Below, piece after piece: positions 5,903-34,429 of a DNA stretch of 35,636 nucleotides. Source of the DNA: an uncultured Flavobacteriales bacterium. Its GTDB lineage: Bacteria; Bacteroidota; Bacteroidia; Flavobacteriales_D; Sanyastnellaceae. Positions within the stretch are counted from its first letter, which is position 1. Each line of letters opens with the position of its first letter. Where the stretch lies: positions 1 through 35,636 of the forward strand of contig CALKGK010000070.1 in assembly GCA_938085105.1 (NCBI GenBank), given 5' to 3'. The translations under genes and the position numbers were made by a program. The notes under the pieces are model-generated. The model searched no databases. It saw nothing but the letters and a program-made list of their open reading frames with translations, and was not told the DNA's origin.

Positions 5903-8308
5903 TCAAAGTTCCAAGATAATACCTATTGCTGGTAATACATTGCCATTGCTCGCATCCAAAAACTGTCCGGCATAACTTCCTGGGGTGTTTGGGTCTTGGA
6001 TGGGCATTCCATTTTCATCGGTTTGAACGGTCAATATGTGTTGAAGCGGAGTCACTTGGTTGTACACGTTTTGAATGTCGAGAAAAACATTGAGGTTCCA
6101 CTTGTCGAAGAACCATTTCTTATCTACCCGCACATCCAACTGGTGGAAGGCATTGATGCGTTCTTCATTCAAGCGAGAATAATCGATGAGTCCGGCACGG
6201 GTGGCATCCCAAACCTCCGTTCTTAAGCTTGACTCAACATCGTAGGGCGTGAAAGGCAAACCTCCCGAAAGTTGAAATCGAAAACCTACTTCCCAATTGC
6301 GCTTGAGTTTCTTACCACCAGTCAAACTCACGATGTGACGGCTATCCCAGCTGCTGGGCCTCAATGTTCCCGTGGCATCTTCAAACTCACTGCGCACAAA
6401 GGTGTAGGCCAAAATTCCAAACCACCCTTTGTACAGTTTTTGTTGAACGAGTAACTCTGCTCCATAGGATCTTCCTTCAGAAATGGAGCGCACTTCTTCG
6501 TTTCCAATCACCCCAAAATCAGCCCCCAAATTAGCCAAGCTGATTCCTTTGTCGACACTGAAAGGATATTGATCGTAGTCTTTGTAGAAACCTTCGACGG
6601 TAATGATGGTGTTTCGCTCGGGATAGTCATACTGGAGCCCGGCAACCAATTGCTTGTTCCGAATGTATTGCAGATTGTTGTCGCGATTCACTAAACGACC
6701 ATTTTCAGAATACCCCATGATGGTATAAGCGGGCAACTGATAATAAATCCCTGTATTGAAATTGGCACTTAAGCGCGGCGTGAGGGCATAACTCGCACTG
6801 AACCTTGGAGAGAATTGGTTCAAGGGATTGAGCATTTCGCTGGAATACTCGTTGGCATCCAAACGCGCTCCTAAAGACAAGACCAAACGCTCGGCAAAAA
6901 AGCGCTTACTGCTTTGAAAAAAGGCGCCAAACTTGTGCAAATCAAACTCGCTGTAGAAATTCTGCGCGTTCAATTCGTCCTCCAAAAAAGAGAACTCGGT
7001 GAAATCACTGCGATTGTTGAATTTCGCATATTCATAGTTCAATCCGTAGGTTACCTTCAGGCTGTTCTTCAAAAACAATCGACGTTCAAGCCTGAATTTA
7101 TTCTCAATTTCTTGAGAAACGTAATCGCGCACAAGGGGCAGACTTTCATCGTTATCTTGGTGCTTGAAAGAACGGTTGTTCAGCATGTTTCTGCTTGCCA
7201 CATAGGTCCACCTTCCTTTTTCATCAAAACGATCCCACTTCACTCCAATGGTGTAGTTCCACTGCGTATCGACCGACAAGACGTCCAAGAGATAACGGTT
7301 GCTTTCGTAATCTTCCTCTGTAGGGTCTTGGCCCAGTGAAGTGTTCAAACTAAACTGATCAATGGCCCCCAGTCCTAAAACGGTGATGCGGTTTTTATCG
7401 TTGGGCTTTGCGGTCCATTTGAATTGAAAATCATTGTAGGTGGGCAAAAACGGCAGTCCAATGGCTTCAAATAGCAGCTGGAGGTAGGACCTTCTGGCCG
7501 ACATAATGATACTCGACTTATCTCCGGTAGGACCTTCCAAAGTGAGTCCAATATCGCTTGTACCAACCACCATGTTTCCCGACCAGCGATCGGTTCTTCC
7601 TTCTTTGAAACCAAAATCGAAGACACTGCTCAAGGCATTTCCCCTGTTCGCCGGAAACGCTCCACTGTAGAACTCAACATCTTGGATAAAGTCAACATTG
7701 ATCAAACCAACCGGTCCGCCCGAAGCACCTTGCGTGGCAAAGTGATTGATATTTGGAATCTCGATACCATCAATAAAGAAGCGGTTTTCATTTGCCGCAC
7801 CACCCCGGATGATGATGTCGTTTCGAAAAGAGGGAATGCTCGCAACCCCTGGCAAAGAGCGAATGGCTCGAGAAATATCTCGATTTCCGCCAGGGTTTCG
7901 TTTGACTTCGTTGATGCCTATTTTTCGCACGCTCAAGGGCGCTTCGTCTCGATTCGCAAAACTGCTGGTCACAACCTCTGCGGTTTCCAGAGCAACTGCA
8001 TCTTCTTCCAGCTGCACATCTACCGTCGCTACCCGGGAGTTGGATACCTGAATTTCAAATACCCGTTGGGGTTTGAAACCAATAAAGCTCACTTCGAGGT
8101 TGTACAAGCCCGCATCGAGCCCGGTAATTTCATAATTTCCATCGATGTCGCTGCTGGTTCCTTTGCTTTCTCCTTGCACAACAATGCTGGCAAAAGGAAT
8201 GGGATCGTTGTTGTTCAACTGGGTGATTTTTCCTCGTATGATCCCGTCTTGGGCGAGGAGAGCACTACTGATCAATAGCAGTAGAACAATGAAGATGCTG
8301 TTTTTCAT
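5903..8308 (-). CDS. TonB-dependent outer membrane receptor with N-terminal carboxypeptidase-regulatory-like domain
   Basis: From the ATG at 8308 the protein has 801 residues: a signal peptide (MKNSIFIVLLLLISSALLAQ), a CarboxypepD_reg-like beta-sandwich (about 22-105, GKITQLNNNDPIPFASIVV and GLYNLEVSFIGFK), a plug domain (SLPGVASIPSFRNDIIIRGG, then FFIDGIEIPN), and a barrel of alternating strands to a terminal IIL-E-L end. Earlier in-frame starts at 8317 and 8356 exist. I prefer 8308 because it gives a clean signal peptide and because a TAAATTCG element (8371-8364) would put transcription near 8356. No SusD-like partner lies nearby, so glycan uptake is not indicated. The substrate is unknown; siderophore, peptide or other ligands are possible. 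Two small genes follow in the same direction. Confidence 0.9.
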   Translation of the reverse strand: MKNSIFIVLLLLISSALLAQDGIIRGKITQLNNNDPIPFASIVVQGESKGTSSDIDGNYEITGLDAGLYNLEVSFIGFKPQRVFEIQVSNSRVATVDVQLEEDAVALETAEVVTSSFANRDEAPLSVRKIGINEVKRNPGGNRDISRAIRSLPGVASIPSFRNDIIIRGGAANENRFFIDGIEIPNINHFATQGASGGPVGLINVDFIQDVEFYSGAFPANRGNALSSVFDFGFKEGRTDRWSGNMVVGTSDIGLTLEGPTGDKSSIIMSARRSYLQLLFEAIGLPFLPTYNDFQFKWTAKPNDKNRITVLGLGAIDQFSLNTSLGQDPTEEDYESNRYLLDVLSVDTQWNYTIGVKWDRFDEKGRWTYVASRNMLNNRSFKHQDNDESLPLVRDYVSQEIENKFRLERRLFLKNSLKVTYGLNYEYAKFNNRSDFTEFSFLEDELNAQNFYSEFDLHKFGAFFQSSKRFFAERLVLSLGARLDANEYSSEMLNPLNQFSPRFSASYALTPRLSANFNTGIYYQLPAYTIMGYSENGRLVNRDNNLQYIRNKQLVAGLQYDYPERNTIITVEGFYKDYDQYPFSVDKGISLANLGADFGVIGNEEVRSISEGRSYGAELLVQQKLYKGWFGILAYTFVRSEFEDATGTLRPSSWDSRHIVSLTGGKKLKRNWEVGFRFQLSGGLPFTPYDVESSLRTEVWDATRAGLIDYSRLNEERINAFHQLDVRVDKKWFFDKWNLNVFLDIQNVYNQVTPLQHILTVQTDENGMPIQDPNTPGSYAGQFLDASNGNVLPAIGIILEL

Positions 8309-8406: not shown

Positions 8407-9066
8407 TTAGAATTCGATGTCCAAATTCAGTGCAATCCTCAATTTTTCCAGTGCAGGGTTTTTCTCATTCATCGCAACGTACTTGTCTTTATCGGTATAC
8501 AAAGACATCTTCTCAGCGCTGGCTTCTTGGAGAACAGTATTCAACTCCAAGGCCGGAGCTTTTAAGGTTGTTCGAAGAGAGTTTAAGAGTTCGTGGCGGA
8601 AACGATCCACAATGGCGGGCTGCGTGCTGTTGTTCAGAATGAGCTCGATGGTGTTTCCCTCCAGTCGTTTTTCATTGGTGCTGAGAATGGTGTAGAACGA
8701 CATCTCGTGTTGTGCCTTGATGGAGTCCGAATAATGCTTCCAAGCTTCCTCGAATTGCTTCACATCAATCTCTACAATTTCTTGGGAGCTGTGCTGCGTA
8801 TCGGTGGTTACATCATCTTGCTGCTCACCGTCTTGTTTCGTGGCCTCTTTTTGGGACAAGACCTCCTTCACAGAGTAGCGTTCTCCCGGCTTCACCCGTA
8901 CCCCTTTTTGCTTGAGAATGCCCGTAGGTTGCGCGATGGGCTTGGGTTTTTTAGAGAAGACATTCACCACTTCCTCGCCGCTTTGGGTGGTCGTTGTCGT
9001 GGTTTTTTTGGCCTGAATGGAAGGGACCAAATGGGCATTACGCAGGATGGGTACTAGGCGACGGGC
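8407..9066 (-). CDS. dnaX: DnaX tau-specific C-terminal region, read after a -1 frameshift
   Basis: This frame continues DnaX in the -1 frame. It has no good start of its own (first candidate TTG at 9030) and is closed upstream by a UGA at 9078-9076, directly before the A10 run. Read from the slip site it gives 219 residues: a low-complexity, threonine- and lysine-rich linker with KPKPIAQPTG, then a folded tail (VKQFEEAWKHYSDSIKA to the C-terminus LNLDIEF). The tail resembles the C-terminal segment of Bacteroidota gamma/tau subunits, which in other bacteria binds the polymerase alpha subunit and helicase. Joined to the 366 upstream residues it makes a tau of about 585 residues, a normal full length for the family. 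Either ribosomal -1 shifting or addition of one A by RNA polymerase would join the frames. Confidence 0.85.
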   Translation of the reverse strand, partial: ARRLVPILRNAHLVPSIQAKKTTTTTTQSGEEVVNVFSKKPKPIAQPTGILKQKGVRVKPGERYSVKEVLSQKEATKQDGEQQDDVTTDTQHSSQEIVEIDVKQFEEAWKHYSDSIKAQHEMSFYTILSTNEKRLEGNTIELILNNSTQPAIVDRFRHELLNSLRTTLKAPALELNTVLQEASAEKMSLYTDKDKYVAMNEKNPALEKLRIALNLDIEF

Positions 9067-10163
9067 TTTTTTTTTTCAGCGATTTGGGAAACAAGGGACC
9101 CCACTTGCATCAAGGCCAACTCTACTAATAAGCGTTGGTTTTTGCTGCTTTTGAACCCTTGATCCGTCTTGTTGGTGATCTCCATAGCTTGGATCAACCA
9201 CATCACTGAGCACAGTGTCGTTTGTTCTCTGTACCTCGCTTTGAGATCATCACTCACCTCCATCAACTCCAAAGTAGATTCGTCTTTGCACACGAGTAAA
9301 TTTCTCAAATGCTCTCCAAATCCGACAATGAAAAAGTGTCCATCAAAGCCACCTTTGATGATTTCGTTGAAGATCAGCAATCCTTCAGAAATGTTCTCTT
9401 CCACAAGGGCTTTGGTCATTCTGAAGTAGTAATCGTAATCCAGGATGTTCAAATTCGAAATGACCGATTGGTAGGTCAGCTCCCGATTGGAAAAAGCCAC
9501 CGCTTGATCGAAGATGGACAAGGCATCTCTCAGGGCACCGTCTGCTTTTTGAGCAATCACGTGCAAGGCTTCTGGCTCGGCGCTTACTTCTTCTTGCGTG
9601 GCGATCATCTGCAAGTGCTCCGTCATGTCTGCAATGCTGATGCGATTGAAGTCGAACACTTGGCATCGAGAAATGATGGTAGGAAGAATTTTGTGTTTCT
9701 CCGTTGTTGCCAGAACAAATTTGGCGTGGGCGGGCGGTTCTTCGAGTGTTTTGAGGAAGGCGTTGAAGGCTGCAGAACTGAGCATGTGCACCTCATCAAT
9801 CACATACACCTTATATTTCCCCGTTTGTGGAGGGATTCTCACCTGCTCCATCAAACTCCTTATGTCGTCCACGCTATTGTTTGAAGCGGCATCGAGTTCG
9901 AAAATATTGAAGGCATATTCTCCTTCTTGGTCCTGATCAAAACCTGACGCTTCGTTGGACATCCATCCGTTGATTGCCTTGGCGAAGATTCGGGCACAAG
10001 TGGTTTTCCCCACACCTCGCGGACCACAAAACAAGTAGGCGTGGCCCAATTGCTCTGTATCGATAGCGCGCTGGAGAGTAGCTTTGATGGACTTTTGTCC
10101 AACCACTGTATCCCAATTGTAAGGACGATATTTTCTGGCCGAAACCTTGTATGCTTTGTTCAT
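9054..10163 (-). CDS. dnaX: DNA polymerase III subunit gamma (0-frame product of dnaX), clamp-loader ATPase
   Basis: From the ATG at 10163 (an upstream in-frame GTG at 10184 is less likely) this 369-residue product carries the AAA+ clamp-loader domains. SARKYRPYNWDTVVGQ opens the protein, Walker A is GPRGVGKTT (47-55), Walker B/DExx is VIDEVH (121-126), and the sensor region holds TIISRCQVF near 155-165. It loads the sliding clamp during replication. The zinc-binding cysteine module found after Walker A in many bacterial DnaX proteins is missing; the segment reads NGWMSNEASGFDQDQEGEY, as I recall for flavobacterial DnaX. Translation ends at a UAG shortly after an A10 run, without the tau tail, which continues in the -1 frame. 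The 369-residue form therefore corresponds to gamma. Confidence 0.92.
   Translation of the reverse strand: MNKAYKVSARKYRPYNWDTVVGQKSIKATLQRAIDTEQLGHAYLFCGPRGVGKTTCARIFAKAINGWMSNEASGFDQDQEGEYAFNIFELDAASNNSVDDIRSLMEQVRIPPQTGKYKVYVIDEVHMLSSAAFNAFLKTLEEPPAHAKFVLATTEKHKILPTIISRCQVFDFNRISIADMTEHLQMIATQEEVSAEPEALHVIAQKADGALRDALSIFDQAVAFSNRELTYQSVISNLNILDYDYYFRMTKALVEENISEGLLIFNEIIKGGFDGHFFIVGFGEHLRNLLVCKDESTLELMEVSDDLKARYREQTTLCSVMWLIQAMEITNKTDQGFKSSKNQRLLVELALMQVGSLVSQIAEKKKPVA
9066..9077 (-). promoter_or_regulatory. dnaX slippery site: ten A residues then G (recoding signal)
   Basis: The mRNA reads GCU GAA AAA AAA AAG CCC GUC GCC UAG in the 0 frame. The A10-G run includes the A AAA AAG heptamer used for -1 frameshifting in E. 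coli dnaX, and it is also long enough for the transcriptional slippage described for the Thermus dnaX A run. The -1 frame has UGA just before the run and the 0 frame has UAG nine bases after it, so only this site can join them. I see no obvious stable hairpin just downstream, and only a G-rich GUGGGGUC about 20 bases upstream. That leans toward transcriptional slippage, but both are possible. Confidence 0.75.
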
Positions 10164-11473: not shown

Positions 11474-11506
11474 AACGGCGGATCTCAGGATCGGCCGTTT
11501 TTTTTT
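11474..11506 (+). terminator. Intrinsic terminator of the rpsF-rpsR-rplI operon
   Basis: The arms AACGGC and GCCGTT (11474-11479 and 11494-11499) pair perfectly. After one G-G mismatch, GATC pairs with GATC around a TCAG loop. Nine T residues follow (11498-11506). It lies between convergent genes; the opposite strand has only a short T run, so it mainly serves the ribosomal operon. Confidence 0.88.
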
Positions 11507-34233: not shown

Positions 34234-34429
34234 AGCTTCATTTGCTTGAACCTGCGCATTTCCACAGTATTGTTTTTCGTTTCTATCGGAAGCAATAATC
34301 TCATCTCATTCGAAACCTATTCACTTGAATTGTTTTGCTCCTAAAACATGCCCCACAGCCCCAGCTGAAGAGGAGACGGGCTACATCAATTCAAAAAAAA
34401 ATTGAATCTTTGTAACCTAACTATAAATT
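34234..34429. other. Intergenic region before the beta-barrel gene; possible promoter near 34405
   Basis: This stretch holds no coding frame I can support. Near its right end AATCTTTG (34405-34412) differs from TAnnTTTG at one position and lies 17 bases before the ATG at 34430, so it may drive the outer-membrane protein gene. An A-run precedes it. Confidence 0.35.

Follow-up and report, generated by a model that had tools for sequence, protein, structure and literature searches.

A two-frame dnaX gene in an uncultured Flavobacteriales bacterium, with a conserved A10 run that probably yields gamma and tau by RNA-polymerase slippage

The split dnaX gene of the window

The window, a stretch of 35,636 nt from contig CALKGK010000070.1 of an uncultured Flavobacteriales bacterium (assembly GCA_938085105.1), carries on its minus strand a dnaX gene that is divided between two frames, the break lying at ten consecutive A's (Table 1). 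An ORF reading places the tail frame at -1 relative to the gamma frame at the DNA level, with an overlap of 22 nt. Following the 0 frame through the AAG and then the -1 frame gives a tau of 585 aa, and this fusion results either from a -1 shift on A_AAA_AAG or from the addition of one A. Removal of one A from the run yields a product of 374 aa; the two registers without tau (369 aa and 374 aa) both stop near the run. An earlier note on this DNA had described the division at A10-G, a 0 frame ending in QIAEKKKPVA before its TAG, a -1 frame shut by a TGA ahead of the run, and products of 369 aa unjoined and 585 aa joined, and all of this was confirmed. Its overlap of 22 nt was also correct, but the overlap holds A9-G rather than A10-G, since the first A of the run belongs to the TGA.

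Table 1. Coordinates of the dnaX features in the window
Feature	Position	Strand	Remarks
dnaX 0 frame, gamma subunit, 369 aa	9054..10163	-	AAA+ clamp loader domains I-III
ATG, start of the 0 frame	10163-10161	-	
Tail specific to tau in the -1 frame, 222 aa and stop codon	8407..9075	-	Open from 9075
TGA shutting the -1 frame upstream	9076..9078	-	Its last base opens the run
A10 run, putative slip site	9067..9076	-	G follows at 9066; A_AAA_AAG in the phase of the 0 frame
TAG, 0-frame stop ending gamma	9054..9056	-	Preceded by KKKPVA

The 0 frame matched the Pfam families DNA_pol3_delta2, DNAX_ATPase_lid and DNA_pol3_gamma3, as well as the NCBIfam models dnaX_nterm and PRK14971 (positions 3-371). 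The tau tail, for which no Pfam match was obtained, matched positions 418-613 of the 614 positions of PRK14971 (DnaX gamma/tau; 1.5e-20). Because the 0 frame and the tail matched complementary parts of PRK14971, they belong to one protein family; the model was matched part by part, below its cut-off for the whole protein. Searching the genome of the window for dnaX revealed one place at 2.9e-247 and four more at 7.9e-7 or weaker, the latter being taken for other AAA+ genes. Between positions 8000 and 10600 of the window, Rfam at E<=1 returned only two unrelated lncRNA families, both under their cut-offs.

A run of A9-G is by itself unsurprising in 35 kb, since 1.46 were expected from shuffles and one was seen; what is surprising is its position and its conservation. 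Two further A9 runs of the window (11498-11506, minus strand; 34393-34401, plus strand) lie just outside large ORFs. The whole genome holds 71 runs of at least nine A's, and eight of the 30 examined lie in an ORF of at least 100 aa, a count that has no clean expectation. Four other loci of this genome (L312, L318, L300 and L315) have A9 to A10 runs that lie inside ORFs of 147-352 aa or at their ends.

The sole other genome of the same genus in our set (G014; JAQWFN010000004.1) shares with the window the A10, the register and the KKKPVA terminus. Between the two, gamma shows 87% amino acid identity, with a pS of 0.72 (near saturation) and a dN/dS of 0.042, and the tail shows 59% identity, with a pN of 0.30 against a pS of 0.76. 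Homopolymers are error-prone in sequencing, and the split could be an assembly error (a true run of nine or 11 A's) or the mark of a broken dnaX or pseudogene, as one locus of the family does appear to be. However, A10 and register are identical in G014, an independent assembly, tau is found at one added A in 20 of the 96 family loci, including that of the one-contig genome G046, gamma has a low dN/dS, and pN is below pS in the tail. These data render an error or a pseudogene scarcely credible. The family locus that appears broken (L041; G003, genus g2) is the only one in the family without at least nine A's. It has A8 and A7, and its tail seems broken in several frames; A10 and an intact frame of 570 aa are present in two congeners.

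Conservation of the A run and exchange of registers

We compared 281 distinct dnaX loci with a usable match, the window included, from genomes of its family, order, class and phylum and from named genomes. In the family, 101 of 114 genomes had a match and 96 loci were analysed, the partial hits in G013, G110, G084, G075 and G097 being left out. A match was present in 96 genomes of the order outside the family, for which 13 loci and 60 hand-picked ones were used and a partial one (L164) was dropped. Twenty of 34 were taken from the class and 20 of 109 from the rest of the phylum; these hand-picked loci cover the families and both frame lengths and were chosen before the runs had been seen. The named sample comprised 80 loci, of which 73 were kept after five duplicates and two partial hits had been dropped.

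At least nine A's stand at the junction in 245 of the 281 loci. The comparison with relatives that the earlier note had suggested bore out the conservation of the run, with 95 of 96 loci in the family and 65 of 72 in the rest of the order; the corresponding counts were 20 of 20 in the class, 13 of 20 in the phylum and 52 of 73 in the named sample. Four of the 245 run loci have no single clear tau register, and three of these (L049, L072 and L232) end with the contig behind the run. Among the 241 clear loci the run is mostly A10 (194), followed by A11 (33), A9 (13) and A12 (1), and only two other runs of at least nine A's were found in the 394,245 nt of the 241 compared genes, the window included. 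Since AAA makes up only 0.63 of the Lys codons elsewhere in gamma (a value from related rows and not a formal test), the unbroken run is not due to codon bias alone. Phase variation of the DNA run length was set aside by reasoning, as about ten A's are present nearly throughout the sample, unlike in contingency loci. The fourth unclear run locus, a Bacteroidales one with A10 (L258), showed no tau length in the -1, 0 and +1 registers, its longest product being 419 aa.

Exactly one register gives tau in 241 of the 245 run loci: the genomic one in 124, the one with one A more in 79 (the class of the window) and the one with one A fewer in 38. Within the family, the 96 loci comprise 52 with tau in the genomic register, 20 at one A more, 21 at one A fewer, two that are unclear and one without the run. 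In 228 of the 241 loci, a stop closes each of the two other registers within ten codons. Taken by class, the two alternative registers stop that early in 118 and 123 of the 124 loci with tau in the genomic register, in 78 and all 79 of those with tau at one A more, and in 37 and 34 of the 38 with tau at one A fewer; as a control, alternative frames further down the same tails do so in 46% and 52%. A -1 ribosomal shift enters one alternative register, and stuttering that adds and removes bases enters both. Because relatedness inflates such counts, they were interpreted alongside the tree.

A FastTree phylogeny of 239 gamma sequences, from which the run was excluded and two rows had been removed, implied at least 30 changes of register. 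A smaller tree of 56 rows (the family plus seven outgroups) required at least 11 changes, compared with a mean of 23.2 and a minimum of 18 for shuffled labels, which indicates that the register is inherited but labile. Independently of any tree, more than one register was found within each of six genera (g5, g17, g49, g64, g95 and Hymenobacter). Among the clearest contrasts, one Hymenobacter pair, with 93% DNA identity, has A10 with tau in frame in one member and A11 with gamma in frame in the other; A11 stands against A12 in g5 and A10 against A11 in g49, and in g17 the locus of the -1 class has a C directly after A10 that its in-frame neighbours lack. Among 106 pairs of loci at least 80% identical, the register differs in five, all of which involve the Hymenobacter locus L246.

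Probable slippage by RNA polymerase and rival movements of the ribosome

With the direction of the register varying among relatives that share the A run, polymerase slippage explains the data best, and the window probably holds a two-ORF dnaX in which slippage of RNA polymerase on A10 gives both gamma and tau. RNA polymerase would slip on the run and produce mRNAs with 10, 11, 9 or other numbers of A's; the unslipped mRNA would give gamma (369 aa), tau (585 aa) would come from an mRNA that had gained one A or lost two, and an mRNA with one A fewer would end early at 374 aa. We infer that RNA polymerase rather than the ribosome is the slipping machine and that the cell produces and uses both proteins. 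The earlier note had also proposed programmed production of gamma and tau, with RNA-polymerase slippage likelier than -1 ribosomal shifting, and the comparative evidence favours this mechanism.

According to Antonov et al., 2013 (PMC3711429), orthologues keep the direction of a frameshift when the ribosome causes it but not when it arises by transcriptional realignment, and this difference serves there as the test. The surveyed dnaX loci show the unconserved direction of transcriptional realignment and not the conserved direction of the E. coli type; with three registers, at least 30 changes and variation within six genera, a frameshift of the ribosome in one direction is inadequate. The modal run of ten favours slippage as well, since it fits the RNA-DNA hybrid of 9-10 bp given for Thermus RNA polymerase in PMC5009743, where the general point is also made that, at an efficiency near 50%, a single base change can swap the roles of the products. 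On 7-11 A's, insertion is at least twice as efficient as deletion (work cited in the portion seen of PMC6260861), which fits the 79 loci with tau at one A more against the 38 at one A fewer, a ratio that clade sizes also shape. In the same paper, A runs are described as less slippery than T runs for E. coli RNA polymerase, with more than seven A's needed (PMC6260861), and this preference tells against easy slippage on A runs, at least for that enzyme. The 36 of 281 loci that lack the run also count against an explanation by slippage.

With moderate confidence, we further suggest that the frame in which dnaX is stored is nearly neutral in much of Bacteroidota, register swaps by indels being tolerated and the run and the stops being selected. 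A conserved A10 would let RNA polymerase deliver all three registers, and single-base indels would have swapped gamma-in-genome and tau-in-genome at least 30 times in the sample. The importance of gamma and the question of what makes it have so far been argued from a small number of model genes; in the present sample, relatives throughout a class retain the slip site and stops in every register through at least 30 exchanges. Such retention argues strongly, on comparative grounds, that both products are under selection and that they arise by slippage and not by directed ribosomal shifting. Natural Hymenobacter pairs one A apart make slippage directly testable.

The window has the heptamer A_AAA_AAG in the right phase, on which -1 programmed ribosomal frameshifting could act as in E. 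coli, with tau as the shifted product. Thirty-one tRNA matches were obtained in the genome of the window (30 loci scanned, the 31st lying inside one), among them a single tRNA-Lys, with UUU. A single tRNA-Lys(UUU) is the condition that makes A_AAA_AAG shifty in E. coli, and since the window's genome apparently has only this one, AAG may be shifty here in the same manner. Our positive control, E. coli dnaX, showed A6-G with SD cores 10-12 nt upstream, whereas no SD-like stimulator was found about 10 nt upstream of the run in the window; the sole core within the 35 nt searched is a GGGG 22 nt off, so that none lies in the useful range, which corrects the weak Shine-Dalgarno-like site of the earlier note. 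Its statement that no downstream hairpin is evident agrees with our data, the downstream fold (-6.7 kcal/mol, z 0.35) being none beyond chance in a shuffle test that is of little power: the known hairpin of E. coli dnaX has -19.1 kcal/mol and yet a z of -0.45 with mononucleotide shuffles. In the relatives, downstream folding did not clearly exceed the control in any class (mean z of -0.34 to -0.64 against -0.02 to -0.24), in a test that misses the E. coli hairpin.

In the dozen bases upstream of the run, SD-like cores are enriched in the relatives, as a ribosomal mechanism would explain. Among 181 less-related loci, 6-mers at offsets 0-5 before the run carry them at a frequency of 0.19-0.29 against a background of 0.045, with a peak of up to 0.62 in the -1 class (24 loci, tau at one A fewer). 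Transcriptional slippage alone leaves these purine-rich cores, seen for example in L104, L062 and L011, without an explanation. In such SD-rich relatives, mostly of the -1 class, the ribosome may contribute. Such a contribution is weakened by what two papers report, namely that SD sequences go unrecognised by Bacteroidia ribosomes, a subpopulation without bS21 using very strong ones (PMC9976891), and that prfB frameshift efficiency is low in Flavobacterium johnsoniae (PMC12421855). A reversed dnaX, with tau made by ribosomal shift, is a known candidate in Chlorobium phaeobacteroides, mentioned as unpublished in the available text of PMC5009743. Nevertheless, 38 of the 241 loci require a shift in the opposite direction, close stops are present in both alternative registers, the window has neither an SD core in range nor, by the weak shuffle test, a hairpin beyond chance, and ten A's are unnecessary for a heptamer. 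In our judgement, -1 programmed ribosomal frameshifting is an unlikely explanation for the window.

Interchangeable registers and stops in both frames would be explained equally well if ribosomes slid on the poly(A) and left it in any of the three frames, the polymerase not slipping at all. Multi-frame sliding has been shown in E. coli systems, but in the E. coli cell-free system a minimum of 11 A's was required (both from the part seen of PMC4363877) and 194 of the 241 loci have exactly ten, which counts mildly against it. We consider sliding rather improbable and keep to polymerase slippage.

Known dnaX genes and loci without the run

E. coli, like the window, has A_AAA_AAG in dnaX and makes gamma and tau from one gene. 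There, the site is A6-G with an SD core 10-12 nt upstream, a hairpin of -19 kcal/mol and tau in frame; the window, by contrast, has no such SD core, a weak fold only and gamma in frame. The dnaX of Thermus thermophilus (A9, transcriptional slippage) resembles that of the window in having a run of at least nine A's after the gamma part and, judging from the accessible parts of PMC5009743 and PMC1088944, in having stops near the run in both other frames; tau and gamma of this bacterium come from mRNAs that differ in the number of A's (PMC5009743, PMC1088944). The two differ in the protein stored in the genomic frame, which is tau in T. thermophilus and gamma in the window.

Antonov et al. (2013), in the part of PMC3711429 available to us, reported ten A's in nine of 17 dnaX genes, for which slippage was predicted. 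The window shares with these two-ORF genes the split, the -1 relation at the DNA level, the poly-A junction and the need of a frame change for the long product, and by its sequence its dnaX is of the two-ORF A10 type already described there (PMC3711429). Unlike the 17 new dnaX genes of that part, which are all -1, the relatives analysed here also have tau in frame or in the opposite direction at the same run. Broad conservation of the run together with exchange among three registers was not found in the open-access main texts searched, and this comparative pattern, rather than the gene of the window alone, is the interesting part. For annotators it matters that Bacteroidota dnaX genes that look truncated or frameshifted at the run are probably intact.

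The 36 loci without at least nine A's comprise 23 with one long frame, 11 that are short and two cut by the end of a contig. The earlier note had named relatives with an uninterrupted frame and no run as evidence against its reading. Such relatives are absent from the family, where the frame is uninterrupted in 52 of 96 loci and all 52 retain the A run. They do exist farther away, at 23 of the 281 loci, all in the phylum and named samples and none in the family, order and class samples. Three loci of uncultured Bacteroidales/Bacteroidetes (L266, L268 and L270) have a dnaX of 373-380 aa that lacks an A run, and beyond its stop no other frame stays open longer than 59 nt; these are possibly gamma-only genes without a tau tail.

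A run-less group of genera of family f9 (g43, g51, g52, g58 and g143), represented among the short loci above, was found within the order of the window. Sixteen of the 17 loci examined (L355-L365, L368, L369, L372, L374 and L375) have three to seven A's, while L373 (g146) retains A10. In the run-less loci dnaX is still split, with the tail in the -1 frame, which shows that a split dnaX can be kept by means other than the run. Their gamma stop overlaps or directly follows a tail-frame ATG, GTG or ATC in 16 of 16 cases: a tail-frame ATC starts 4 nt before the stop in 13, and in the remaining three it is a tail-frame ATG (two loci: ATGA, TAATG) or GTG (one locus: GTGA) that the stop overlaps. This arrangement would suit a tail made as a separate protein by termination and reinitiation behind the gamma stop. 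In the window, however, the first listed start in the tail frame, TTG at 9030, comes 24 nt after the stop, and an ATG within the first 25 tau-frame codons is not commoner in split genes (3 of 79 and 3 of 38) than in unsplit ones (13 of 124); no sign of reinitiation was present in the tail start codons of loci that retain the run. For the window we regard reinitiation as highly improbable, and polymerase slippage is retained there.

For the run-less f9 loci themselves, termination-reinitiation, or another form of recoding, is a candidate, given the 13-nt overlap in six of them and codons that are poor for a -1 slip. The ATC before the gamma stop may simply reflect a conserved Ile-Leu-Ser. In three of these loci (L365, L369 and L372), a run of A6 to A7 is followed by GGAGG four bases before the tail-frame ATC, ahead of the gamma stop, an arrangement that looks like a Shine-Dalgarno sequence plus start, in hosts whose ribosomes mostly ignore such sequences.
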